Source: a virus
Reading direction: 5' to 3' (one strand)
Length of the DNA stretch: 39,461 nt
Virus record (IMG/VR): IMGVR_UViG_3300050019_000127
Coordinates: 1-39,461 of that record
The notes under the pieces were generated by a model. That model was not told the DNA's origin, did not search any database, and saw only the letters and a program-made list of their open reading frames with translations. Position 1 is the stretch's first letter. Each line of letters begins with the position of its first letter. This document shows, in pieces, positions 1 to 39,461 of this stretch. The translations under genes were made by a program, and so were the position numbers.

Positions 1-107
1 GGTTTTTTATTGACCAGGACAAACTCATGACCACCAAAAAACGGCCGGAAAACATCGGAACGCAGTGCCGCTCGCTGATCCTGCGCGCGGCCGGTGCCGA
101 ATCAAAG
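1..107. repeat. Direct terminal repeat, left copy
   Basis: These 107 bases recur at 39355-39461 with a single difference: position 69 is C here and T at 39423. The repeat begins in the T-run of a terminator and runs into the protease-capsid gene. The simplest reading is an assembly overlap of a circular or circularly permuted genome, giving a unique length of 39354 bp. A true physical terminal repeat is less likely because the copy starts in the middle of a terminator and the terminase is of the lambda (cos-cutting) family. Confidence 0.95.
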
Positions 108-4628: not shown

Positions 4629-7019
4629 ATGTCCAACAACGACGCTGAACTGCGAATCGGCGGTGATTCCTCCGGGCTGACCGAGGCCTGCAAGACCGCC
4701 GAGCAAGCGGTCAAGCAATCTTTCGACAAGATGCAGTCGTCGATGGCCTCTCTGGGCGGCGCGCTGCAGAAACTGCAGGGCACCTTCATCGCGGTCACCG
4801 CCATCCTCGCCGGCGGCAAGGCCTTCAAGGAATTTATCGACGCATCGATGGAAGAGGCCAACGCAGTCATCCGGCTCGAACGGGTTTTCGGGATGACCGC
4901 TGATTCGGCCACAGTCCTCAATGTCGCGCTAAAGCTCACCGGCCAGTCGGCCGAGGAATTTGCTGGTATGGCCTTCAAGCTCTTGAAGCACGTTGAAACC
5001 AACGGCGAAGGCATGGAAAAGCTCGGCGTCAAGACGCGTGACGCAACCACTGGCGGATTGCGTCCGATGATGGACCTCATGACCAACGCCGCCGATGTGC
5101 TGCTGCAGTACAAGGAAGGCGCAGACCGCGATGCCGCGGCGATGTACTTCTTTGGACGCAGCGCCCAGGACGCTATGGGCATCCTCAAGCTCAACGCAGA
5201 GGTGATGGCGCGCGCCAACATGCTTGCCGATCAGTACAACCTGAAGACCGGCGAAGAAGGCGTGGCGGCCGCCGAGAAATTCAAGATCGAGCAGGCCGCG
5301 CTCGGGATCATGTTCGACGCCATGAAGGTCAAGGTTGGCGACGCCGTCATGCCGGTGCTGACGCAACTGGCCGGCTGGTTTTCGGAGGTCGGGCCAACGG
5401 TCATCGATGTCTTCCTCAAGGGCTTGAAGCAGCTCATCCAATTCTTCGAGGAAACGGTTTTCGGTTTTCGGATGTTGTATAGCGCGGCGTCCGATTTCGG
5501 CGTCGTTTTCGTCGCCCTTGCCGATGGCCTGAGCAACGCGATGAGTCGTCTGATGCACGGCGACTTTTCCGGCGCGAAACAGGCAATCACCGACAGTCTC
5601 GATGCGATCAAGGGCATATGGAAACAGAACGCCGATGACCGAGTTCGCATCGAGGCCGAAACGAACGAGCGCATCAGAAAACTCTGGGCGGGTGAAACCG
5701 ACACCGGGTCTAAGCCAGACGCCAAGAAGCCAAAAGGCACCAAGACCTGGAAGAACCCCGACGAAAAAGGGGGCGCCGAAAAATCGCAAATGGGCGCCTT
5801 CGATGCAGAGCTCGCGCAGACCAAGGTGGCCTACCAAATGACCCACGATCTGCGCGAGATGACCAAGAAAGAGGAAATCGCCTGGTGGAACGAAAAGAAG
5901 GCTCTGACCACGACCGGCAGCAACGACCAGATCACGATCAGTAAAAAGACCGCCGAGCTGCAGTTGGAGATACTGAAGAAGAACGCCAAGGACGGGAAAG
6001 AACTAAGCACCGAAGCGATCGGTGCCAGGGAAAAGGCGGCAAATGATGCTCTGGCCGTTGACGAGCAGGCCGCGCAGCAAAAGCAGGCTATGGGACAAAT
6101 CACACAACAGCAACTGTTGGCGCTTGAGCAGGGGTTTGAAGACAAGCGTTTTGAAATTCAGCAGCAAGCGCAAGCCGACCGGATTACGGCCATGCTGGGC
6201 GATCCGAACATGGATCCTGTGGCGCTACAAAAGATGTTGGACCAGATGCTGGATATCCAGCGCGAGCATGCACTGAAGCTCGGTAAGATTCAGAATGCCA
6301 CAGCACTGGAAACCAGAAAGTCGCAGGAATCCATGCTGGCGCCGGTCACTTCGGCGATTGAGAAGACCGTCAACGGCATGATTCAGGGAACGCTGACGCT
6401 CAAGAAAGCGTTATCAAATATCTTCCAATCGATACTCGGTGAGTTTGTCAGCGTCGGGGCAAAGTTGGTCGCAACGTGGCTGCTCGACAACGGGAAAATG
6501 ACAGCGGTGTCAAAGGCGTTTTCAGCGCTTAAGACTGCCCTATGGGGAGAAGAAGCGGCGGCAAAAGTCACCTCTGACACAGCGGCAGCGGCGGGATCAA
6601 AGGTTTTTGCTGCCGCCACGATCCCCGCCGAAGCAGCCACGGCAGCTGGGGGCGCAGCCTCCGCAGTTGCCAGCATCCCGTACGTTGGTCCGGCTATGGC
6701 CGCCGCCGCTTATGCTGAAACCTTTGCCATGGTCATGGCTGGCATGGGCGCCGCTTCTGCTTCTGGCGGCTTCGATATCCCCTCCGGAGTTAATCCACTC
6801 ACCCAGCTGCACCAGGAAGAAATGGTTCTCCCCGCGCACATCGCCAACCCGTTGCGTGAAAGCCTGGCTGGCGGCGGTGGCGGTTCTGGCGGCGCGGTTC
6901 ATCTCCATGTCCATGCTCTTGACGTCAAGGGTGTCAAGGATTGGATGAAGACGAACAGTCACGCCATGGCGCCGGCGCTGCGCCAGATCGCCCGTAACTT
7001 CACGCCGGTGCGGGCATGA
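4629..7019 (+). CDS. Tail tape measure protein
   Basis: A 796-residue protein beginning NDAELRIGGDSSGLTEACKT. It has long coiled-coil stretches in the first 150 residues and around 390-570. Hydrophobic segments occur near 250-310 and a long Ala/Gly-rich region near 655-720 (SIPYVGPAMAAAAYAETFA). The tail region GGFDIPSGVNPLTQLHQEEMVLPAHIA is typical of tape measure C-termini. At about 0.15 nm per residue this predicts a tail near 120 nm, an inference from the known scaling. It follows the G/GT pair and ends in an ATGA overlap with the DUF2460-like gene. Confidence 0.92.
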   Translation: MSNNDAELRIGGDSSGLTEACKTAEQAVKQSFDKMQSSMASLGGALQKLQGTFIAVTAILAGGKAFKEFIDASMEEANAVIRLERVFGMTADSATVLNVALKLTGQSAEEFAGMAFKLLKHVETNGEGMEKLGVKTRDATTGGLRPMMDLMTNAADVLLQYKEGADRDAAAMYFFGRSAQDAMGILKLNAEVMARANMLADQYNLKTGEEGVAAAEKFKIEQAALGIMFDAMKVKVGDAVMPVLTQLAGWFSEVGPTVIDVFLKGLKQLIQFFEETVFGFRMLYSAASDFGVVFVALADGLSNAMSRLMHGDFSGAKQAITDSLDAIKGIWKQNADDRVRIEAETNERIRKLWAGETDTGSKPDAKKPKGTKTWKNPDEKGGAEKSQMGAFDAELAQTKVAYQMTHDLREMTKKEEIAWWNEKKALTTTGSNDQITISKKTAELQLEILKKNAKDGKELSTEAIGAREKAANDALAVDEQAAQQKQAMGQITQQQLLALEQGFEDKRFEIQQQAQADRITAMLGDPNMDPVALQKMLDQMLDIQREHALKLGKIQNATALETRKSQESMLAPVTSAIEKTVNGMIQGTLTLKKALSNIFQSILGEFVSVGAKLVATWLLDNGKMTAVSKAFSALKTALWGEEAAAKVTSDTAAAAGSKVFAAATIPAEAATAAGGAASAVASIPYVGPAMAAAAYAETFAMVMAGMGAASASGGFDIPSGVNPLTQLHQEEMVLPAHIANPLRESLAGGGGGSGGAVHLHVHALDVKGVKDWMKTNSHAMAPALRQIARNFTPVRA

Positions 7020-18195: not shown

Positions 18196-18420
18196 GCTAA
18201 AAACTGTCTAAGACCTACGCTACAACCCGCGCCAATCCTAGACTCAAAAACGCGAAAATTACTGTTTAACCTTAGACAGAACAATAGGCAATTGCTTGTA
18301 TGTTCAATTACTTGATACATTTCTCGCCCATTTTTGAGCAATAACTTTGAAAAATAAGAAACGTTGCCGTTGCTGCGTTTGAACGGTGTTGTGTCTAAGG
18401 TTTTCTAATGTGTGTCTAAG
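18196..18420. other. Probable attP region with integrase arm-type repeats
   Basis: This 220-base non-coding gap lies between convergent transcription units and next to the integrase gene. TGTCTAAG occurs at 18205-18212, 18392-18399 and 18413-18420, and inverted as CTTAGACA at 18271-18278. A close pair of imperfect direct repeats, CAATTGCTTGTAT (18289-18301) and CAATTACTTGATA (18305-18317), lies between them. An eight-base inverted repeat AGCGTAGG/CCTACGCT flanks the first arm copy. This is the layout of a phage attachment site: outer arm sites with a core between. The core itself cannot be fixed without the host att sequence. Confidence 0.65.
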
Positions 18421-19393
18421 ATTTAACCATTGGCAACGGTTGAACGAGGGGTATTTTCTTCCCTCGCAAGTATCGCTGATGCGTCTTTTCACTGCGGTGC
18501 CCAAGCAGCGCCATTGAATTCATACCCTGCTCATCGGCATCCGTTGCCGCTTTTGCCCGGATGTCGTGCATATTCCCGTTTTCAATTCCAGCCAGCTTGG
18601 TAGCTTTACGCCACCAATCCCTGACGGTAGAGTAGGGTAGCGGCTTGCCTTGCTTCGTGCTGAATAGGGTCATGCCCTTGACGCTGGTGTGCACGGCCCT
18701 GGCGTTCGCTATGGCGTCTTTCAAGTCTTGCGTCCATTCAAGGCGCATCTTCTCGCCAGTCTTTTCCTGTTGGACGTACAGACCAGCGTCTGAAATGTCC
18801 GAATAAAGGATTTTCAGCACATCGCCAATGCGTTGCCCTGTCTGAAGGCTTATCGTGATGATTGCCTTCAGCGTTGGATTTGCTTTGTCTCGAATGGCGA
18901 GATATTCAGCGTCAGTCAAATACCTGTTGCGCTGGCCACCTTGCCAGTTCTTCACCTCGCGCATCGGGTTGAAGTCAATTCGCCCCTCTTCAACGGCAAG
19001 CTGCATCGTACCAACCATTACCGACCGGTAGAGCTGGGCCATTGCATCCGTGATTTTCGCCCCGGCGACCCATTGGTAAAAGTGTTTTGGCTTGAAGTCT
19101 TCTGGATTGAACTCAGAGAATGCAACTTTCAGCTTTCGAGCTCCTGTTCCGTAGGCGCGTAAGGTATTCGCAGCAGGATGCTTCTTGTCTTTCTTGCGTT
19201 TCTCGATCCACCGGTCAATGAAGTCAGGAATGCTGCCAGATCGCTTTTTCTCGACAAGTGGCGCGTACAGGCGCAATGCTTCCGCATAGTCACGGCTCAG
19301 AAGCGTCCACTTGTTCTTGAATACGTAATAAAAACCGCCGTGCTTCTCATGCAGGCGTATAGGAAACTTACGCAAAATTGATCCTTGGCTCAT
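18416..19393 (-). CDS. int: Tyrosine-type integrase
   Basis: A 325-residue protein from the ATG at 19393; TTG and GTG codons six and five codons upstream are alternatives. It has an N-terminal arm-binding part (about 1-50), a SAM-like core-binding domain (about 55-145) and a catalytic domain. Key residues seen are R188 (TGQRIGDVL), H276 and R279 (HDIRAKAA), H299 (LLGHRSEKT) and Y308 (HQRYLRG). This is the full R-H-R-H-Y set. It would integrate and excise the prophage at attP. The gene ends inside an arm-type repeat, and its start overlaps the DUF4224-like gene. It is the last gene of the long minus-strand operon. Confidence 0.92.
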   Translation of the reverse strand: MSQGSILRKFPIRLHEKHGGFYYVFKNKWTLLSRDYAEALRLYAPLVEKKRSGSIPDFIDRWIEKRKKDKKHPAANTLRAYGTGARKLKVAFSEFNPEDFKPKHFYQWVAGAKITDAMAQLYRSVMVGTMQLAVEEGRIDFNPMREVKNWQGGQRNRYLTDAEYLAIRDKANPTLKAIITISLQTGQRIGDVLKILYSDISDAGLYVQQEKTGEKMRLEWTQDLKDAIANARAVHTSVKGMTLFSTKQGKPLPYSTVRDWWRKATKLAGIENGNMHDIRAKAATDADEQGMNSMALLGHRSEKTHQRYLRGKKIPLVQPLPMVKS

Positions 19394-19562
19394 TCTTTGT
19401 CGGCTCACCAAGTTTAGCGTTCAGCGCGGATTCTGCAACCACCGGCCAGCCGTCAGCGTCTTTGATGAAAGGGACACCTATCTCCTTCAGCCAAGGAATG
19501 ATTCGGCGGCGCTGCTTCGCTCCGCTGATCTTCTGTAACTCTGCCTTCAGAACAATGTTCAT
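19368..19562 (-). CDS. DUF4224-like small protein next to integrase
   Basis: The start at 19562 makes an ATGA overlap with the previous gene, giving 64 residues. The segment LKEIGVPFIKDADGWPVV is typical of DUF4224, small proteins often found directly before phage integrases. A role as excisionase or DNA-bending partner of integrase is plausible but not established. Its end overlaps the integrase start by 26 bases. Confidence 0.72.
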   Translation of the reverse strand: MNIVLKAELQKISGAKQRRRIIPWLKEIGVPFIKDADGWPVVAESALNAKLGEPTKNEPRINFA

Positions 19563-20424: not shown

Positions 20425-21809
20425 GTGTGTCTCCGGTAAGTTTTAGTCAGATCGGCCTTGATGCTGTGGCCGCGATAACGCAGGATGTTGGCCAGTTGCG
20501 CCCGGTCGTGATGGCTGTGGCCTGATTGTCGAAACAATCCGAAATAGCTATTGGCTGTCTCGAAAAGTTTGTCGCCCTCTATTGAGCGAACACGGCTCAG
20601 GGCATCATTGAAGGTGCGTCGACGTGTCGTTCGGCGCCATGGCTTAATCACCTGCCCAATGAAGTCGACGCCGCGATCTACGGGCTGCAGGATGGTCTTC
20701 TTGGCGTTGAGTCGCGCATTCAGGCGTGCCGGAAGAAAGTCCTCGATCTCGGCGTGTGCGGTGTTGAGCCACTGGGGCGATTCGTGCAATAGGATGAAGT
20801 CATCGACGTAGCGCACGTAATGCTTGGCGCCGATCCGGTGCTTAATGAACTGGTCCAGTGCATCAAGGTAGACGTTGGCAAAGAACTGGCTGGAAAGATT
20901 GCCAATGGGAAGTCCGCGATTGGCCGGGTGGTTGGTCAGTCGTTTATGGGCCGGTACCAGATCCAGCTTGGCCGGATCGCCGCGTAACTCGTAGTTCTGG
21001 CGCGGATCGTGAAACAGAATGGTTTCAGTCAGCCACAGCCACCAGGGTTCAATGATGTGTGTAGCCAGTTGCTCATGCAGGATGTTTTTATCGATGCTGA
21101 CGAAGAAGTTAGCCAGATCGAGTTTCAGGTAATGCGCTGGCCGACTCCAGTTCTGCGTGACGCTACGGATCTTCGCCTCCAGGCGCTCGGCCGCATAGAG
21201 CGTTCCGCGCCCCGGGATGCAGGCGCAGGAATCCACAATGAAGCGCCGGTAGAACATGGGCGAGACGCGGTTGTAGAGCAAATGGTGCACGATGCGATCA
21301 CGGAAATCTGCCGCCCATACCTCGCGCGGTTTTGGCCGGGTGATGGCAAAGCAGATCGAGCATCCGGGTGTATAGGTGCTGTCCCGCAGCTCGTCGGCCA
21401 GGATGCTTAGGTTGTGCTCCAGATCCTGCTCGAAGGCCAAAGCGCTGGCGCTGTTGCGCTTGGACTGGCGGCAATCGAAGTAGGCCTGGACAAGTTCTAC
21501 AAAAGAAAAATCAGCCGGGTGGCGTTGTGTTCGATCTGCGGACAGCCCGGGCGCGCAACTCGTTGTTGACGTTGTTGTTGTTCTGGTTGCCGTTGTTGAA
21601 GTTCTGATACCAGGCGTAACCGGCGTCGGACTCGTGCTGTTTCCTGTTGTGCTATCGATGTCGCCCTGCCGAATCATCAGCGGGGAAACTGCGCCAGACC
21701 GATCCTGGCTACTGCCAGTGGTATCCGTGGTGCGCATGTCGGTGGCCTTGTGGGCCAGCGGCTCAACCAGATTGAAAATTCGTACAGTCATGGGGGTCGT
21801 AACCTTCAT
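20421..21809 (-). CDS. DGR reverse transcriptase
   Basis: The RT of a diversity-generating retroelement. From the ATG at 21809 it is 462 residues. The catalytic YVDD is at 334-337 (RYVDDFIL), and the DGR hallmark IGNLSSQ is at 302-308, where other RTs have QGxxxSP. LKLDLANFFVSID carries the first catalytic Asp. The segment FRDRIVHHLLYN near 169-180 is also typical. The core domain starts only near residue 100; the first 100 residues cover the spacer and the template repeat read in another frame. I prefer 21809 because that ATG overlaps the original avd stop (ATGA). No start codon lies between the end of the template repeat and the RT core, so translation must begin upstream and pass through it. 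It ends coupled to the dNMP kinase gene. Confidence 0.93.
   Translation of the reverse strand: MKVTTPMTVRIFNLVEPLAHKATDMRTTDTTGSSQDRSGAVSPLMIRQGDIDSTTGNSTSPTPVTPGIRTSTTATRTTTTSTTSCAPGLSADRTQRHPADFSFVELVQAYFDCRQSKRNSASALAFEQDLEHNLSILADELRDSTYTPGCSICFAITRPKPREVWAADFRDRIVHHLLYNRVSPMFYRRFIVDSCACIPGRGTLYAAERLEAKIRSVTQNWSRPAHYLKLDLANFFVSIDKNILHEQLATHIIEPWWLWLTETILFHDPRQNYELRGDPAKLDLVPAHKRLTNHPANRGLPIGNLSSQFFANVYLDALDQFIKHRIGAKHYVRYVDDFILLHESPQWLNTAHAEIEDFLPARLNARLNAKKTILQPVDRGVDFIGQVIKPWRRTTRRRTFNDALSRVRSIEGDKLFETANSYFGLFRQSGHSHHDRAQLANILRYRGHSIKADLTKTYRRHT
21535..21641 (-). repeat. DGR template repeat (TR)
   Basis: This 107-base repeat, read on the minus strand, contains ten AAC codons in the frame used by the targets. 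It matches three variable repeats, differing only at template adenines. Its 3' part in coding sense is a constant GC-rich stretch (GTTGCGCGCCCGGG), as expected for the mutagenic homology initiation region. It lies just upstream of the RT core, in the usual avd-TR-RT order, and within the RT reading frame. Confidence 0.95.
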
Positions 21810-22159
21810 GAAGCGGACGATGCGGCGGAACGACGCCATCCACTGGCCTGCTTGCCAATGCTGGTGGTCAATTCGATTGCCTTGGCGTACTGGCCAATCG
21901 AGATCAACTGCTTGTCACGCGATCATCGAATGAGCAGCTCTGTAACTTGAAGCCGCTCAATCAGATCGTCGATGTGAGGCGCTTTCACGCGGGAAACATT
22001 GGCGCGAAAGATGAGCACCATGATCTCAACGCACTCATCACGGAGTTTCCCGCCGATCGATGACTTGAAGTCACGATTCATGTTCTTGACGAGATCCGTG
22101 ATGGCGTTGAGAAGGTCATAAGCAACCTTGTAAATCGGCAATTGGGTGTGGAGTGCCAT
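21806..22159 (-). pseudogene. avd: DGR accessory protein Avd, interrupted by an in-frame UGA
   Basis: The first 78 residues (ALHTQLPIYKVAYDLLNAI and on to TELLIR) fit the Avd four-helix bundle, which binds the RT and RNA template. TGA at 21923-21925 then stops the frame, but the same frame continues SRDKQLISIGQYAKAIELT and IGKQASGW, the typical last helix, to a TGA at 21806-21808. The full length would be about 117 residues, as usual for the family. One base change, for example Leu TTA to TGA, would explain it. The original stop overlaps the RT start (ATGA), so the lesion may also lower RT translation. No clear ribosome-binding site precedes the ATG at 22159. It may be a sequencing error or a real knock-out; stop readthrough is a third option. 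Confidence 0.85.
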
Positions 22160-22188
22160 GCTGAATAAAGGAATAAATTACTGAAGGA

Positions 22189-22644
22189 CTAAATGGCTAC
22201 TCTGCGGACAGCCCGGGCGCGCAACTCGTTGAGGACGTGGTCGTAGATCTGGTCGCCGCTGATGAAGTGCTGAAACCAGGCGTAACCGGCGTCGGACTCG
22301 TGCTGTTCACAAGACCAGTAGTAGCGCTCTTCGAACTGTTCTTTGAGGTTTGCGAACAGCAGGGATTGTTCACGGCGTGTTGGCAGTTCGCCGCCGAGTA
22401 GTTTTGCCCAGTCCTTGGCGGCTTGCCACGCCATATCGGCGGTTGGAATTCCTGCCATCAGGATCAGGTGATAACTGGCCTCGCCGTCCTTTCCGACGAT
22501 TAGGCCGGCGTAGTGCTCGCCAGGCCGCATGGTGATCAGCGTTTCAGGGAAGTGGAATTCCGGTATTTGTTCCTCAAATTGAGCGATCAGTGCGGCCAGC
22601 TTGCTTTGCTCGGCCTTGATAGATTCGAGAGTGATGGTGATCAT
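22189..22644 (-). CDS. DGR target protein 1 (DUF1566-like, C-type-lectin-type variable end)
   Basis: A 151-residue protein with AGAGG before its ATG. The first 35 residues form an extra helix (SIKAEQSKLAALIAQFEEQI) missing in the other targets. The DUF1566-like core has GEHYAGLIVGKDGEASYHLI and GGELPTRREQSLLF. The YYWSCEQHESDAGYAW segment leads into the variable repeat, and the constant end is NELRARAVRRVAI. Relative to the template, the Asn codons have become I, S, D, Y, H and L. No signal peptide is seen, so it is likely cytoplasmic. It lies just upstream of avd. Confidence 0.88.
   Translation of the reverse strand: MITITLESIKAEQSKLAALIAQFEEQIPEFHFPETLITMRPGEHYAGLIVGKDGEASYHLILMAGIPTADMAWQAAKDWAKLLGGELPTRREQSLLFANLKEQFEERYYWSCEQHESDAGYAWFQHFISGDQIYDHVLNELRARAVRRVAI
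22201..22307 (-). repeat. DGR variable repeat VR1
   Basis: Aligned with the template repeat without gaps it has 11 differences, all at positions where the template coding strand has A. It covers the last third of target 1 up to the final four codons. Confidence 0.94.
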
Positions 22645-22677
22645 TGCGGCCTCTTAAATGAATAAATTGTTAAAGGA

Positions 22678-23046
22678 CTAAATGGGCAATCTGCGGACAG
22701 CCCGGGCGCGCAACTCGAGGTTGACGGTGAGGTTGTCCTGGTAGCCGTTGTCGAAGTCCTGACACCAGGCGTAACCGGCGTCGGACTCGTGCTGTTCGCC
22801 GCTCCAGTACCAGTCTTTCTTGAATTCATCCCGGTGCTTGGCCCACAATAGGGATTGCTCTACTCGGGTCGGAAGCTCGCCGCCGATGGACTTAGCCCAT
22901 TCGGTTTGTTTCTCCCAGGAGGCATCATCGCTGTCGCCAGGGAGAAGGATGATGTGGTGGCCTTGCTGGCTCTCCGCGTCGAACAGAGTGGCGATGTAGA
23001 TTTCGCCGGCAGCAAGGTTAGGTAGTGTGATAGATGGTTTTTCCAT
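22678..23046 (-). CDS. DGR target protein 2 (DUF1566-like)
   Basis: A 122-residue protein with GGGAG before the ATG. It begins EKPSITLPNLAAGEIYIATL and has HHIILLPGDSDDASWEKQ and GGELPTRVEQSLLWAKH, typical of DUF1566-like phage proteins with a C-type lectin type end. WYWSGEQHESDAGYAW leads into VR2. The variable residues are D, Y, D, L, T and L where the template encodes Asn. It is the only target besides target 1 with an intact frame. Confidence 0.88.
   Translation of the reverse strand: MEKPSITLPNLAAGEIYIATLFDAESQQGHHIILLPGDSDDASWEKQTEWAKSIGGELPTRVEQSLLWAKHRDEFKKDWYWSGEQHESDAGYAWCQDFDNGYQDNLTVNLELRARAVRRLPI
22690..22796 (-). repeat. DGR variable repeat VR2
   Basis: Ten differences from the template repeat over 107 bases, without gaps, all at template adenines. 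Homology to VR3, but not to the template, continues upstream (TACTGGAGCGGCGA), reflecting the shared target gene family. Confidence 0.94.
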
Positions 23047-23076
23047 GATGACTCCCGTGTGGTGTTAAGAACGGCG

Positions 23077-23166
23077 CTATTTCGTGCCGAAGTGAATGGC
23101 TGACCCAGCGACCAGCGAAACGCCGATCGAAGCGAAGATCCAGCCGAGAATGATGAGTACGATCAT
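23077..23166 (-). CDS. Small membrane peptide, 29 aa
   Basis: The ATG at 23166 overlaps the stop of the upstream small gene (ATGA), with AAAGG nearby. Nearly the whole peptide is a membrane span (IVLIILGWIFASIGVSLVAG), ending in HFGTK. Function unknown; the upstream extension of the frame is unlikely to be translated. Confidence 0.5.
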   Translation of the reverse strand: MIVLIILGWIFASIGVSLVAGSAIHFGTK

Positions 23167-23267
23167 CGCGCCGCCTTTACCCATGCCAGATGGGCGGAAT
23201 AGTTGAGCCGGCGCATGTAGCGCCAAGCCGTTAAAACACGCGTAGCGAATGCAATCAGGCGACGCAT
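23163..23267 (-). CDS. Small basic protein, 34 aa
   Basis: This 34-residue frame begins RRLIAFATRVLTAWRYMRR and ends LAWVKAAR. Short basic, Trp/Arg-rich proteins of this kind are common in early phage operons. It overlaps both neighbours, which supports translation. No function recognised. Confidence 0.45.
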   Translation of the reverse strand: MRRLIAFATRVLTAWRYMRRLNYSAHLAWVKAAR

Positions 23268-23467
23268 GGCGAGTTGACCAATGGTTTGGTGACGCAACCC
23301 ATTCGTGCCCAGCCTTTCGGGATGCGGTCTTTCGGGAAGAACGAGATGCGGAACGGGCCTTGCATCGCATTGCAGGCAATCAACCCGGACTTTAAGGCTC
23401 GGGTAACGACCTGATCGACCGTGGCATCATCGATCTGGCGCATAGGCAGGATCATTGCGGAAATCAT
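23255..23467 (-). CDS. Hypothetical protein, 70 aa
   Basis: Preceded by GGGGA five bases before the ATG and located 15 bases after the DUF2303-like gene. The sequence has a helix (DDATVDQVVTRALKSGLIAC) and a C-terminal FFPKDRIPKGWARMGCVTKP. It looks like a small cytoplasmic early protein. Family not recognised. Confidence 0.6.
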   Translation of the reverse strand: MISAMILPMRQIDDATVDQVVTRALKSGLIACNAMQGPFRISFFPKDRIPKGWARMGCVTKPLVNSPCVA

Positions 23468-23482
23468 GGCGTCCCCGATTGG

Positions 23483-24337
23483 TTATGACGAGAAGGGTTC
23501 GCCGAAGAAGAACGGATTGCCGGTCTTCTCGCGGATCAGCGCAATCAGCGTCTGCGTAGCGGCCTCAAGCACCTTGTCCTGGCGGATCAACTCAAACCAG
23601 AAAGCCAGCTTTCCATCGCGCACGCGGTAGCGCAGACGGGCGTCAATGCGGTAAGCATCGCCATTCCAAAACACCGGGAAGCCCAGCGAGAAGCGGTCGA
23701 ATACCTGCATCTTCTGCAGCGTCTGTGCGTCATCGTCTTGCACGAAGCTCATCTGTACACCGCCGTTTTGCAGGCGGATCGCGCTCTTGAAACGCATGTC
23801 CTGATTGGCTTCGAAGGTGACCGCCATTTCCAGCATCTGCGCACCGGTCGGGCTGCCGTCGACGCTCGCAATGTCCTTCAGGTTGTCTTCGACGAAGACG
23901 GCGAATTCAACTTGCGTGAAAGGTTTTTTGTTCTGGCTGACCCAACGGACCCATTCCTCAGAAAACTCTGGCGAAAACGAGGCTTTGTGGTCGCGCCACG
24001 CGGCTTTTGTTTCGTCCTCGCCGTGGTCGTTGAGAATTCCCGTGAACTTGACCTTCCCGGCCTTGTAGTCGGCGATGCACCAGACGGTGCTATCGGTGAG
24101 TGAGCCGTGACGCTTGATGTAGCCGATAAAGCTGTCGGCGTCATCAGTGCGAACGGTTGCCAACTTGCGGCGCGGAGCCAAAAGCAGCTTCTTGTCGTCG
24201 TCGCGCTCTTCCAGCTTCCAGTCCGGGGGCAATGCTACGCGCTTGATATTGCCACCCGGCTCGCTGATGATCTCGATGGGCTGTTTCATTTCACGCGCCA
24301 GCGTTTCGGCGATATTGCTCAGTTCAGTGTTTTCCAC
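23483..24337 (-). CDS. DUF2303 family protein
   Basis: A 284-residue protein beginning ENTELSNIAETLAREMKQP. It contains PPDWKLEERDDDKKLLLAP and later KPFTQVEFAVFVEDNLKDI, hallmarks of the DUF2303 (YfdQ-like) family of phage early proteins. The C-terminus is beta-rich and ends FFFGEPFSS. The biochemical role is unknown; relatives lie in lambdoid early operons near recombination genes. It follows the 114-residue gene by nine bases. Confidence 0.85.
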   Translation of the reverse strand: MENTELSNIAETLAREMKQPIEIISEPGGNIKRVALPPDWKLEERDDDKKLLLAPRRKLATVRTDDADSFIGYIKRHGSLTDSTVWCIADYKAGKVKFTGILNDHGEDETKAAWRDHKASFSPEFSEEWVRWVSQNKKPFTQVEFAVFVEDNLKDIASVDGSPTGAQMLEMAVTFEANQDMRFKSAIRLQNGGVQMSFVQDDDAQTLQKMQVFDRFSLGFPVFWNGDAYRIDARLRYRVRDGKLAFWFELIRQDKVLEAATQTLIALIREKTGNPFFFGEPFSS

Positions 24338-24346
24338 AGGGATTCC

Positions 24347-24691
24347 TTAAGCGGTCTTGAGTTCAGAAGGGGAGACGTCGGCGGTACCGGCAGCGACCTT
24401 GAGGGCAAGATTCAACTGGCGCGGATCGTCAGCAACCAGGTTGCCCTCGGGCGTGGCGAAGAGCAGGGCTTCCATCGCTTCTTCGGCTGGCTTGGTCATC
24501 TTCACCTTGCCGGAAATGTGCATCGCCCCCCCGCGCGTGGCCTTCTTGACGGTGATGGACAGATCGATCTTTCCGGACTTTCCGGAAGCATCGACGGCGG
24601 ATACCAACTCAGCGAGCTTGTCGCTGGCAATATCGATAAACACGCCACCGCCGATATGGCGAAGGGTGTCGGTGATGGGGCGCGTGCTCAT
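24347..24691 (-). CDS. Conserved hypothetical early phage protein, 114 aa
   Basis: GAGG precedes the ATG. The protein begins RPITDTLRHIGGGVFIDIAS, and has a beta segment (KIDLSITVKKATRGGAMHISG). It ends with a helix and SPSELKTA. Proteins of this look often accompany DUF2303 genes. No enzyme motif is visible; it may act together with its DUF2303 neighbour. Confidence 0.7.
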   Translation of the reverse strand: MSTRPITDTLRHIGGGVFIDIASDKLAELVSAVDASGKSGKIDLSITVKKATRGGAMHISGKVKMTKPAEEAMEALLFATPEGNLVADDPRQLNLALKVAAGTADVSPSELKTA

Positions 24692-24755
24692 TGATTGCCT
24701 CGTTTTCAGTGATTGACTTGCGGTTGATCGGCGGTACGAAAAAATTACTAAAATG

Positions 24756-25110
24756 CTAAATAACTAATCTGCGGACAGCCCGGGCGCGCAACTCGTAGCC
24801 GACGTCGTAGCCGTACTGGAAGCCGTTGAAGAAGTCCTGACACCAGGCGGAACCGGCGTCGGACTCGTGCTGGTCGCCGCTCCAGTACCCTCTTGCCTTG
24901 AATTCTTCCTTGGCTGTCGCGAACAAGATCGCCTGTTCGACTCGGCTGGGAAGGTGGCCTCCGATGCTTTCAGCCCCAGGCCTTGGAGTCTTCCCAGTTC
25001 ATTGATTCGGCTTCACCGGGCAGTAAAATGATGTGCGTCAGTTGCCCTTTGGCATCTACGGTGGCGCCGATGTAGCGCTCGCCTTCGTTCAGTTCTGGAA
25101 TTGAAAGCAT
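24756..25110 (-). pseudogene. DGR target 3 (DUF1566-like), one-base frameshift
   Basis: From the ATG at 25110, preceded by AGGAG, the frame reads LSIPELNEGERYIGATVDAK and later NWEDSKAWG, then hits TGA. Removing one base from the C4 run at 24974-24977 restores AWAESIGGHLPSRVEQAI and YWSGDQHESDAGSAW, leading to VR3 and an ELRARAVRRLVI end. The repaired protein has 117 residues and is closest to target 2. The lesion is one extra base in a homopolymer, so either a real frameshift or a sequencing error is possible. Its repeat carries the most substitutions, so it was once an active target. Confidence 0.88.
24768..24874 (-). repeat. DGR variable repeat VR3
   Basis: Sixteen differences from the template repeat over 107 bases, without gaps, all at template adenines. 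Two lie outside the central Asn block (in the Tyr and Gln-Asn-adjacent parts), showing that mutagenesis spans the whole repeat upstream of the constant end. Confidence 0.94.
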
Positions 25111-25849: not shown

Positions 25850-26572
25850 TCAACGGATAATTCCGCCATACCCTCGAACCACGCCACAGATAGTCGCATC
25901 AATAGGCATGGGCTTAATCGGGTAGCGTGGATTTAGCGGTTTTAATAACCAATCGGCGCCATCCTTAATGAGCTGTTTAAAGGTGGCTTCGTTATGACCA
26001 TTCTTCACGATAACAAAGTCTCCTGGCTCGTGATCAAATTCTGGCTCAACAATAACGATCATTCCTTCCGGGAAGCTTGGCCATCCATTCGGATTAGTCA
26101 TTGAATCCCCAACGACTCGAAGCGCATAGGTATAGCCCTTTACAGGGACCGGACTCGGGATCGCTATTTCGGCATCATTAGGAGCATAGTTATCCACAAC
26201 CTCAGACCAAGCCCCTGCTTGCACCCAGCTAATCAACGGAACCTCCCCCCGGATCGCCGGGCCGGCCGAAACATTTTTGTCGAATGCGTAATCTAGCACG
26301 TCGGAACGTGTGTGAAGTGTGGAATAAGTCACGTTTTCGGAGTTTTCCATGGGAGGAATCCCTGTTTCCAACCACTCGGGCCGGCATCCAACTTTCCCGC
26401 AGATTTCGACAGTTTTGTTTTTGGGTACTCCGCGTTTCTTCCAGTTTGAGAGAGTTTGTTCAGACTCGCCCAGAAGGCGAGCTACATCTGCAAAATTCTT
26501 AAGATGTTTTAGGTCTCGGCAGGCGTCAAGAAGGCGTTTCGCATCTGGTTTCATTTCATCAATAGTAGTCAT
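25850..26572 (-). CDS. cI: CI/LexA-like phage repressor with S24 peptidase
   Basis: A 240-residue protein. The HTH is at about 26-50 (FADVARLLGESEQTLSNWKK). The S24 part has the A119-G120 cleavage site in WVQAGAWSEV, nucleophile S157 in RVVGDSMTN, and Lys K199 in NEATFKQL. The combination means RecA-stimulated self-cleavage and induction by DNA damage. It should bind the 17-base operators at 25335-25351, 26573-26589 and 26610-26626. The promoter lies in the divergent region with the Cro-like gene; the third operator sits directly in front of its own ATG, which would allow autoregulation. Confidence 0.92.
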   Translation of the reverse strand: MTTIDEMKPDAKRLLDACRDLKHLKNFADVARLLGESEQTLSNWKKRGVPKNKTVEICGKVGCRPEWLETGIPPMENSENVTYSTLHTRSDVLDYAFDKNVSAGPAIRGEVPLISWVQAGAWSEVVDNYAPNDAEIAIPSPVPVKGYTYALRVVGDSMTNPNGWPSFPEGMIVIVEPEFDHEPGDFVIVKNGHNEATFKQLIKDGADWLLKPLNPRYPIKPMPIDATICGVVRGYGGIIR

Positions 26573-39340: not shown

Positions 39341-39362
39341 AACCGCCTCCGGGCGGTTTTTT
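39341..39362 (+). terminator. Intrinsic terminator before the protease-capsid gene
   Basis: AACCGCC and GGCGGTT form the same seven-base stem as at 38927-38948, with a TCCG loop and six T. Its T-run is where the circular overlap starts, so in the circle it lies about 20 bases before the capsid fusion ATG. Confidence 0.8.
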
Positions 39363-39461
39363 ATTGACCAGGACAAACTCATGACCACCAAAAAACGGCC
39401 GGAAAACATCGGAACGCAGTGCTGCTCGCTGATCCTGCGCGCGGCCGGTGCCGAATCAAAG
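39355..39461. repeat. Direct terminal repeat, right copy
   Basis: Second copy of bases 1-107, with T at 39423 in place of C at 69. It includes the ATG and first 27 codons of the protease-capsid gene. The T changes codon 15 from CGC (Arg) to TGC (Cys), which is either a sequencing difference or a real variant in the sampled population. Confidence 0.95.
39381..39461 (+). CDS. Repeated start of protease-capsid gene (partial)
   Basis: First 27 codons of the gene at position 27, present again because of the terminal overlap. Codon 15 is TGC (Cys) here instead of CGC (Arg). It is not a second gene. Confidence 0.95.
   Translation, partial: MTTKKRPENIGTQCCSLILRAAGAESK

Follow-up and report, generated by a model that had tools for sequence, protein, structure and literature searches.

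A phage diversity-generating retroelement with RT-15 RNA adjoining its template repeat and a reverse transcriptase frame open through that repeat

The retroelement cassette of the window

The stretch of DNA analysed here, IMG/VR virus record IMGVR_UViG_3300050019_000127 (39,461 bases, referred to from this point on as the window), may carry the sequence errors of a metagenome contig. Its minus strand encodes a reverse transcriptase (RT), an Avd-like protein and three target genes, with a template repeat (TR) beside the conserved RT region and a variable repeat (VR) at the 3' end of each target (Table 1). Together with the differences among the repeats, this arrangement supports the presence of a diversity-generating retroelement (DGR) with one TR and three VRs. 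The repeats were located by an identity-based search that imposed no adenine rule and that returned four 108-nucleotide (nt) copies, all in register. Counted without filtering over the 108 nt, the VRs differ from the TR at 38 positions, 37 of them TR adenines (11+10+16). The remaining one, a T>G in VR1 (21534), sits at the outermost base, outside the 107 nt of the repeat proper. As adenines make up 33 of the 107 TR bases, the chance of all 37 differences falling on them is about 1e-19. The original prediction, read from the letters alone, of a 107-base template matched by three ungapped copies with every difference opposite a template A was therefore exact, and software alignment of the TR with the three VRs gives no non-adenine difference inside the 107 nt.

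Table 1. Features of the DGR cassette (RT-15 is Rfam family RF03018; ORF, open reading frame; aa, amino acids)
Feature	Position	Strand	Remarks
RT ORF, 472 codons	20421..21839	-	open through TR and RT-15
TR, 107 nt	21535..21641	-	identity-based repeat search; reads through without stop in RT frame
RT-15 RNA	21640..21822	-	directly 5' of TR; 159.4 bits against gathering score 82; full model 1-192
Avd-like gene, 78 aa	21923..22159	-	closed by in-frame TGA
Period-8 AT-rich array after VR1	22163..22195	-	read from sequence; paired motif hits 22174-22198
Target gene 1, 151 aa, predicted C-type lectin fold	22189..22644	-	VR at 3' end; intact
VR1	22201..22307	-	11 differences from TR, all at A
Period-8 AT-rich array after VR2	22656..22684	-	read from sequence; paired motif hits 22671-22683
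Target gene 2, 122 aa	22678..23046	-	VR at 3' end; intact
VR2	22690..22796	-	10 differences from TR, all at A
Period-8 AT-rich array after VR3	24739..24763	-	read from sequence; paired motif hits 24753 and 24761
Target gene 3, interrupted	24757..25110	-	frame change near 24973
VR3	24768..24874	-	16 differences from TR, all at A

The targets are paralogous (69-73% over 248 nt), as they would be if the four repeats were ordinary duplicated gene ends that had diverged by normal mutation or gene conversion. The similarity between TR and VRs ends at both repeat edges. With 37 of 37 differences at a single template base and with RT and Avd family genes adjacent, the probability of such an origin is negligible, and we regard it as refuted by the adenine pattern. 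The conserved part of the RT ORF, from about 21503 to 20424, has an open RT domain that matches RVT_1 at 65.3 bits and contains both YVDD and IGNLSSQ, as had been read from the sequence; both motifs are typical of DGR RTs. It also matches phrog_1423 ('Reverse transcriptase') at 6.3e-115, and its nearest solved structure is the 8ub7 series (2.9e-35), which we take to be the BPP-1 RT enzyme.

For comparison, relatives were collected by RT search, taking the best 80 of 325 viral loci and the best 80 of 107 genome loci. Together with three phage records and the window these give 164 loci, of which 140 are non-redundant and 135 have a TR. An Avd match occurs in 162 of the 164, and 140 of these 162 are 115-125 aa long. 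The Avd-like gene noted earlier in the window does belong to this family (phrog_3206, 'Avd protein of DGR', 1.1e-17), but the first reading overlooked its in-frame stop, beyond which conserved Avd residues resume in the same frame, so that the family member is present in interrupted form. Because TGA is the ordinary stop codon of nine of the 14 window genes checked, recoding is unlikely. Avd is common but not universal in DGRs, and its state bears on function, not on DGR membership. The claim of three genes ending in a VR likewise stands for targets 1 and 2, whereas target 3 is not one open frame; it is matched by 20 ORFs of relatives in two frames, with the switch near 24973. Among the lineage VR genes judged, 224 of 230 are intact and six lack a full-length frame, target 3 being one of the six (36 VR genes without the frame-setting motif and 10 running off contigs were set aside). 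RT-15 RNA, the shared stretch of TR and RT frame, and the array behind every VR did not figure in the original prediction.

With Avd and target 3 both interrupted, present activity of the window cassette is doubtful, unless the interruptions stem from sequence errors or another source provides Avd. The cassette could be a fossil, a DGR that worked recently and was silenced by these two lesions, as the in-frame TGA in a genome that uses TGA as a stop and the rarity of broken targets among 230 would suggest. Yet the RT and two targets are open, the contig may be in error at exactly these places, and no VR has a non-A difference in its 107 nt, which means that no mutation has accumulated outside the mechanism. 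We regard a fossil as a serious contender that stays somewhat short of even odds.

RT-15 RNA and the start of the reverse transcriptase

Rfam files RT-15 as 'Gene; sRNA', and the window match covers the model at full length. Among the lineage loci scanned, RT-15 is found in 28 of 30: the window, 14 of 14, 12 of 12 more, and L166 but not L164 or L165, the former being a truncated RT match with no TR and the latter having an RT that is 49% identical. Whole genomes of the lineage contain it in 23 of 25 cases, in one copy each, against none of 14 control genomes, and each genome copy lies no more than 350 nt upstream of the RT, except in L138, where TR and RT are separated. The placement with respect to the TR is precise, RT-15 extending to 1-7 nt beyond the first base of the TR in all 16 loci measured. 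TR and RT domain are 322 and 1014 nt apart in L022 and L049, and TR and RT 853 and 1162 nt apart in L137 and L138; the gaps contain other reading frames, and RT-15 remains with the TR in all four. By eye, the gap frame of L049 is DNA methyltransferase-like and those of L137 and L138 resemble phosphoadenosine phosphosulfate (PAPS) reductase.

No structured RNA element is evident on the 3' side of the TR. According to passages of PMC12875486, the spacer 3' of the TR in BPP-1 is the structure that recruits bRT-Avd and primes complementary DNA (cDNA). In the window the distance from TR to RT domain is 30 nt, with no structured spacer of that type and no Rfam match in it. A spacer hidden in the 5' codons of the RT was considered and rejected: across 72 loci the first RT codons show no excess synonymous conservation, synonymous identity over the first 39 being 0.94-1.02 of expectation (range along the gene, 0.86-1.13), and there is thus no sign of a 3' RNA element there. 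Phage vB_BbrP_003 (PV330005, of the BPP-1 species) resembles the window in having RT, TR and VR with 17 of 17 differences at A. Unlike in the window, its TR is separated from the RT domain by 207 nt and is followed on its 3' side by the Rfam Phage_DGR RNA, and its single VR found is followed by an 8-base-pair GAAA hairpin and no period-8 array. RT-15 was found in none of eight DGR phages used as outgroups, vB_BbrP_003 among them, in which 51-335 nt separate the TR from the RT domain. In another of these, BalMu-1, the stretch from TR to RT contains the Rfam RT-14 RNA (4786-4929), at the site expected for a DGR spacer, so that RT-14 too may be a DGR RNA.

From these positions we infer that the template RNA has RT-15 as its structured 5' domain, with the scaffold role that the 3' spacer has in BPP-1. 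Alternatively, RT-15 might regulate the RT gene as a separate RNA, with the template RNA anchored 3' of the TR as in BPP-1. In most loci RT-15 and the beginning of the RT frame overlap, a position that suits a leader regulator, and both Phage_DGR in the BPP-1-species phage and RT-14 in BalMu-1 are located between TR and RT. We nevertheless think a regulator unlikely, given that RT-15 keeps to the TR in the four loci with genes between TR and RT, and that no 3' element is evident, either in the roughly 30 nt before the RT domain or as synonymous suppression beyond. Should RT-15 prove to be the 5' portion of this RNA, an Rfam family with no role stated in the sources consulted would gain one.

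The case for RT-15 is that of the covariance model, not of folding in the window, where RT-15 plus TR folds no better than shuffled sequence (z -0.82; 21 of 100 shuffled versions did equally well). When 38 loci were folded to a consensus, a conserved stretch of RT-15 paired with the middle of the TR, and a six-pair run between RT-15 and TR is observed in 122 of 128 loci against 359 of 640 shuffled TRs. The pairing was rejected as unproven, since 13 of 128 loci with the RT-15 hexamer lack a TR counterpart and the count of six-pair runs gives no support beyond chance pairing. A literature search that missed likely sources found no mention of RT-15 or several sister names; the source paper is probably Weinberg 2017.

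The RT frame of the window runs open through RT-15 and TR, which raises the matter of where translation begins. Counting ATG, GTG and TTG only, the window has no in-frame start between the TR and the conserved RT start FVELVQAY (21503). The first one after the TR is a TTG located 63 nt inside the conserved region, and in-frame ATGs occur upstream at 21677, 21737, 21791, 21809 and 21839. The same holds for most relatives: in 105 of the 135 TR-bearing loci there is no start from TR to conserved RT domain, which implies that RT translation begins inside or upstream of the TR. By class, 30 loci have a start after the TR (in four of them the TR is more than 200 nt away), 12 upstream only, 11 in the TR only, and 74 both in the TR and upstream; the remaining eight have a stop inside the TR and no start after it. 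In the 12 with only upstream starts, the window among them, the TR must be translated, barring an unusual start codon. Of 70 loci, 64 have the ATG aligned to 21737, and in 55 of those 64 it is in the RT frame; this ATG corresponds to the annotated RT start of Burkholderia phage Magia (MT701587). Translation of the RT would thus begin inside or upstream of the TR, and in the window upstream, probably from one of the five ATGs. The eight loci with an RT-frame stop inside the TR and no later start are all from Pseudomonas (L123, L125, L128, L131, L133, L134, L148 and L154); there the RT would have to start within the TR.

Openness of the frame was dropped as proof that RT-15 is translated. Across 70 viral and phage loci, the 100 nt preceding the TR contain five stops in the RT frame, against 136 and 135 in the two others; the TR itself contains none in the RT frame, against 46 and one. 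The loci are related, however, the RNA itself is conserved, the codon signal is weak and eight genome loci have a stop in the TR, so the case for the RT start is made on start codons.

Overlap of a TR with an RT ORF is a published class, DiGReF group 3 (PMC3521204); the passages on that group concern annotated overlap, and start-codon evidence and RT-15 are not found in them. Magia, whose RT is 66.4% identical to that of the window over 99% of the query, is like the window in having three VRs, RT-15 and an RT annotated from an ATG upstream of the TR, and unlike it in having a full-length Avd of 118 aa. Its record lists RT, an Avd-like protein and two lectin-fold candidate targets, with an early region containing RecT and integrase; the examined part has no RT-15 or TR annotation. 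A start after the TR is present in seven of the eight outgroup DGRs. The exception is Pseudoalteromonas phage ACA1, in which the RT is annotated from upstream of the TR and no in-frame ATG, GTG or TTG follows the TR.

Target genes and the array after the variable repeats

Judged by gene content, the window is a temperate tailed phage. Its plus strand has terminase, portal, major head, tape-measure and tail genes, and its minus strand has an integrase (18416-19411), a deoxynucleoside monophosphate (dNMP) kinase, the DGR, a DUF2303 protein and an S24-type CI-like repressor (25850-26572). The DGR thus sits between the integrase and repressor genes, away from the tail genes. The ends of the window (1-107 and 39355-39461) form a 107-base repeat of 99% identity, as in a circular or terminally redundant assembly.

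The Pfam model Lcl_C hits targets 1 and 2 weakly, below its cut-off. A structure model of target 1 was built from 59 aligned sequences (predicted local distance difference test score, pLDDT, 94.0). By Foldseek, the best match and the sole one at or below 0.001 is the C-terminal domain of Legionella Lcl (8q4e, E 1.6e-4); by VIA-align, the Bd2740 C-terminal domain (Z 13.7) and Lcl (Z 13.2) lead, with many C-type lectins ranking behind. On the model, then, the target has a C-type lectin fold, and the VR codes for the C-terminal portion of it. Membrane segments are not evident in most targets, a strongly hydrophobic 19-mer being found in nine of 224 from the lineage. A defence role finds no PADLOC match for the targets; the window RT matches general RT models there. 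The viral targets of DGR clades 1, 4 and 6 are mostly tail proteins according to a large survey (PMC8144416), and the window targets differ from those in placement and size. Small products of genes that neighbour those for lysogeny and lie outside the tail region, they may work within or upon the lysogen instead of serving as tail receptors; the neighbouring integrase and repressor and the scarcity of hydrophobic stretches point to roles other than tail receptor binding.

The 40 nt 3' of the VRs have a period of 8, with a sub-period of 4. Lag-8 self-match is 0.452 over 276 lineage VRs, compared with 0.266 for shuffled flanks and 0.225 after 135 TRs; 560 random places give 0.251, and the ends of 1106 other genes 0.268. 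Pairs of motif hits spaced by 8 follow 230 of the 276 VRs, as opposed to 27 of 276 shuffled flanks, 4 of 135 TRs, 7 of 560 random places and 10 of 1106 other gene ends; the motif was derived from the same VR flanks in which it was counted, and the lag-8 measure is independent of it. In the window itself, motif clusters follow the three VRs, with a few isolated pairs elsewhere. BPP-1 homing requires a hairpin 3' of the VR, according to passages of PMC3240598. No GC hairpin or cruciform with arms of at least 7 is found 3' of the window VRs; in the lineage, a GC hairpin of at least 7 pairs follows 45 of 276 VRs, 4 of 135 TRs and 5 of 276 shuffled flanks. Of the eight outgroup phages, none has the array by the same test and five have the hairpin. 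A single listing-level literature search returned nothing on such an array.

The array would mark the VRs as recipients, and its occurrence after VRs and not TRs makes it a tangible candidate for the signal by which such a DGR distinguishes recipient from donor. The main rival to target recognition is a translation or operon feature, such as the spacing from a stop codon to the next ribosome-binding site, for the array starts at or just before the target stop and often reaches the start of the next gene. The odds lie against this, although it is a real possibility: few of the other gene 3' ends of the same loci (10 of 1106) and few of the TRs (4 of 135) have the array, and it follows targets with and without a close downstream gene.

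Proposed mechanism and activity in the lineage

The best overall explanation, to which we assign a probability of about 0.85, is a DGR lineage with an RT-15-TR template RNA, an RT frame open through the TR, lectin-fold targets and an array at the VRs. A transcript would carry RT-15 followed by the TR, and would be copied by the error-prone RT, presumably with Avd. During copying the template adenines would be miscopied, and the mutagenised cDNA would replace the 3' ends of the small C-type-lectin-fold target genes. The RNA and the target flanks of this lineage differ from the studied type, and the cassette in the window may be silent.

Several points weigh against this explanation. It assumes that RT-15 and TR are one transcript, and the role given to the array goes beyond the array itself. 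Thirty of the 135 loci do have a start after the TR, the eight Pseudomonas loci have an in-frame stop inside it, and ACA1, outside the lineage, likewise lacks a start after the TR. The codon-position signal of RT-15 in the RT frame is weak (mean entropies 0.66, 0.68 and 0.78, compared with 0.61, 0.50 and 1.34 in the RT domain), which leaves selection for translation of RT-15 unsupported, and breaks of the RT frame in some loci tell against an RT-15-encoded protein. Avd and target 3 are interrupted in the window, and 15 of the 17 locus pairs described below show no VR difference at all.

A more specific version, put forward tentatively and with somewhat less than an even chance of being right in full, has a rearranged template RNA in which a 5' RT-15 scaffold replaces the 3' spacer of BPP-1. 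Here the TR would be both template and N-terminal codons of the RT, the period-8 array would mark recipients instead of or before a cruciform, cDNA priming would be unlike that of BPP-1, ribosome and RT would compete for one RNA, and the targets would act inside or on the lysogen. Were this true, DGRs would split into at least two RNA architectures, making the priming of mutagenic cDNA testable by comparison, and a TR doubling as RT coding sequence would couple template supply to enzyme supply.

The lineage, as traced by sequence, occurs in phages and bacterial genomes, mostly Betaproteobacteria and Pseudomonas. Lineage-wide, 3529 of 3574 differences over the 276 VRs are at A, a proportion that, unlike the 37 of 37 of the window, is high by construction, the TR/VR finder having tolerated at most two non-A differences. 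Over the 109 non-redundant loci with at least 5.5 kilobases upstream of the RT, one VR is present in 13, two in 68, three in 26 (the window included) and four in two. Three targets are therefore ordinary in the lineage, and the view of the original prediction that three is notable is not supported. Published DGRs include ones whose TR serves two, three or four VRs (PMC3521204), and multi-VR DGRs account for 271 of 948 in the survey of PMC6642488. The latter also describes the DGR of Stenotrophomonas sp. SKA14, with six VRs, several DUF1566-type targets and two TRs; by that description it is like the window in serving several targets from one DGR and differs in having a second TR. The count of three thus adds little.

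The check proposed with the original prediction, VR variation at a fixed TR, was made on near-identical pairs of related loci, and these support activity of DGRs in the lineage. VR differences occur in two of the 17 locus pairs with more than 93% RT DNA identity; some of the 15 pairs without any are unchanged in their VRs despite up to 13 changes elsewhere. Loci L007 and L008 are identical across 5514 compared bases except for one VR base, which is opposite a TR adenine. In L051 versus L057, 10 of 62 VR bases differ, nine of them at TR adenines, compared with 4 of 110 in the TR and 77 of 1661 elsewhere. Two phage records, OK094664 (Shewanella phage vB_Sb_QDWS) and OP650936 ('Hujiaoplasma phage zrk29-1', host listed as Tenericutes), have equal lengths of 47902 and equal RT match values, and one may be a mislabelled copy of the other.

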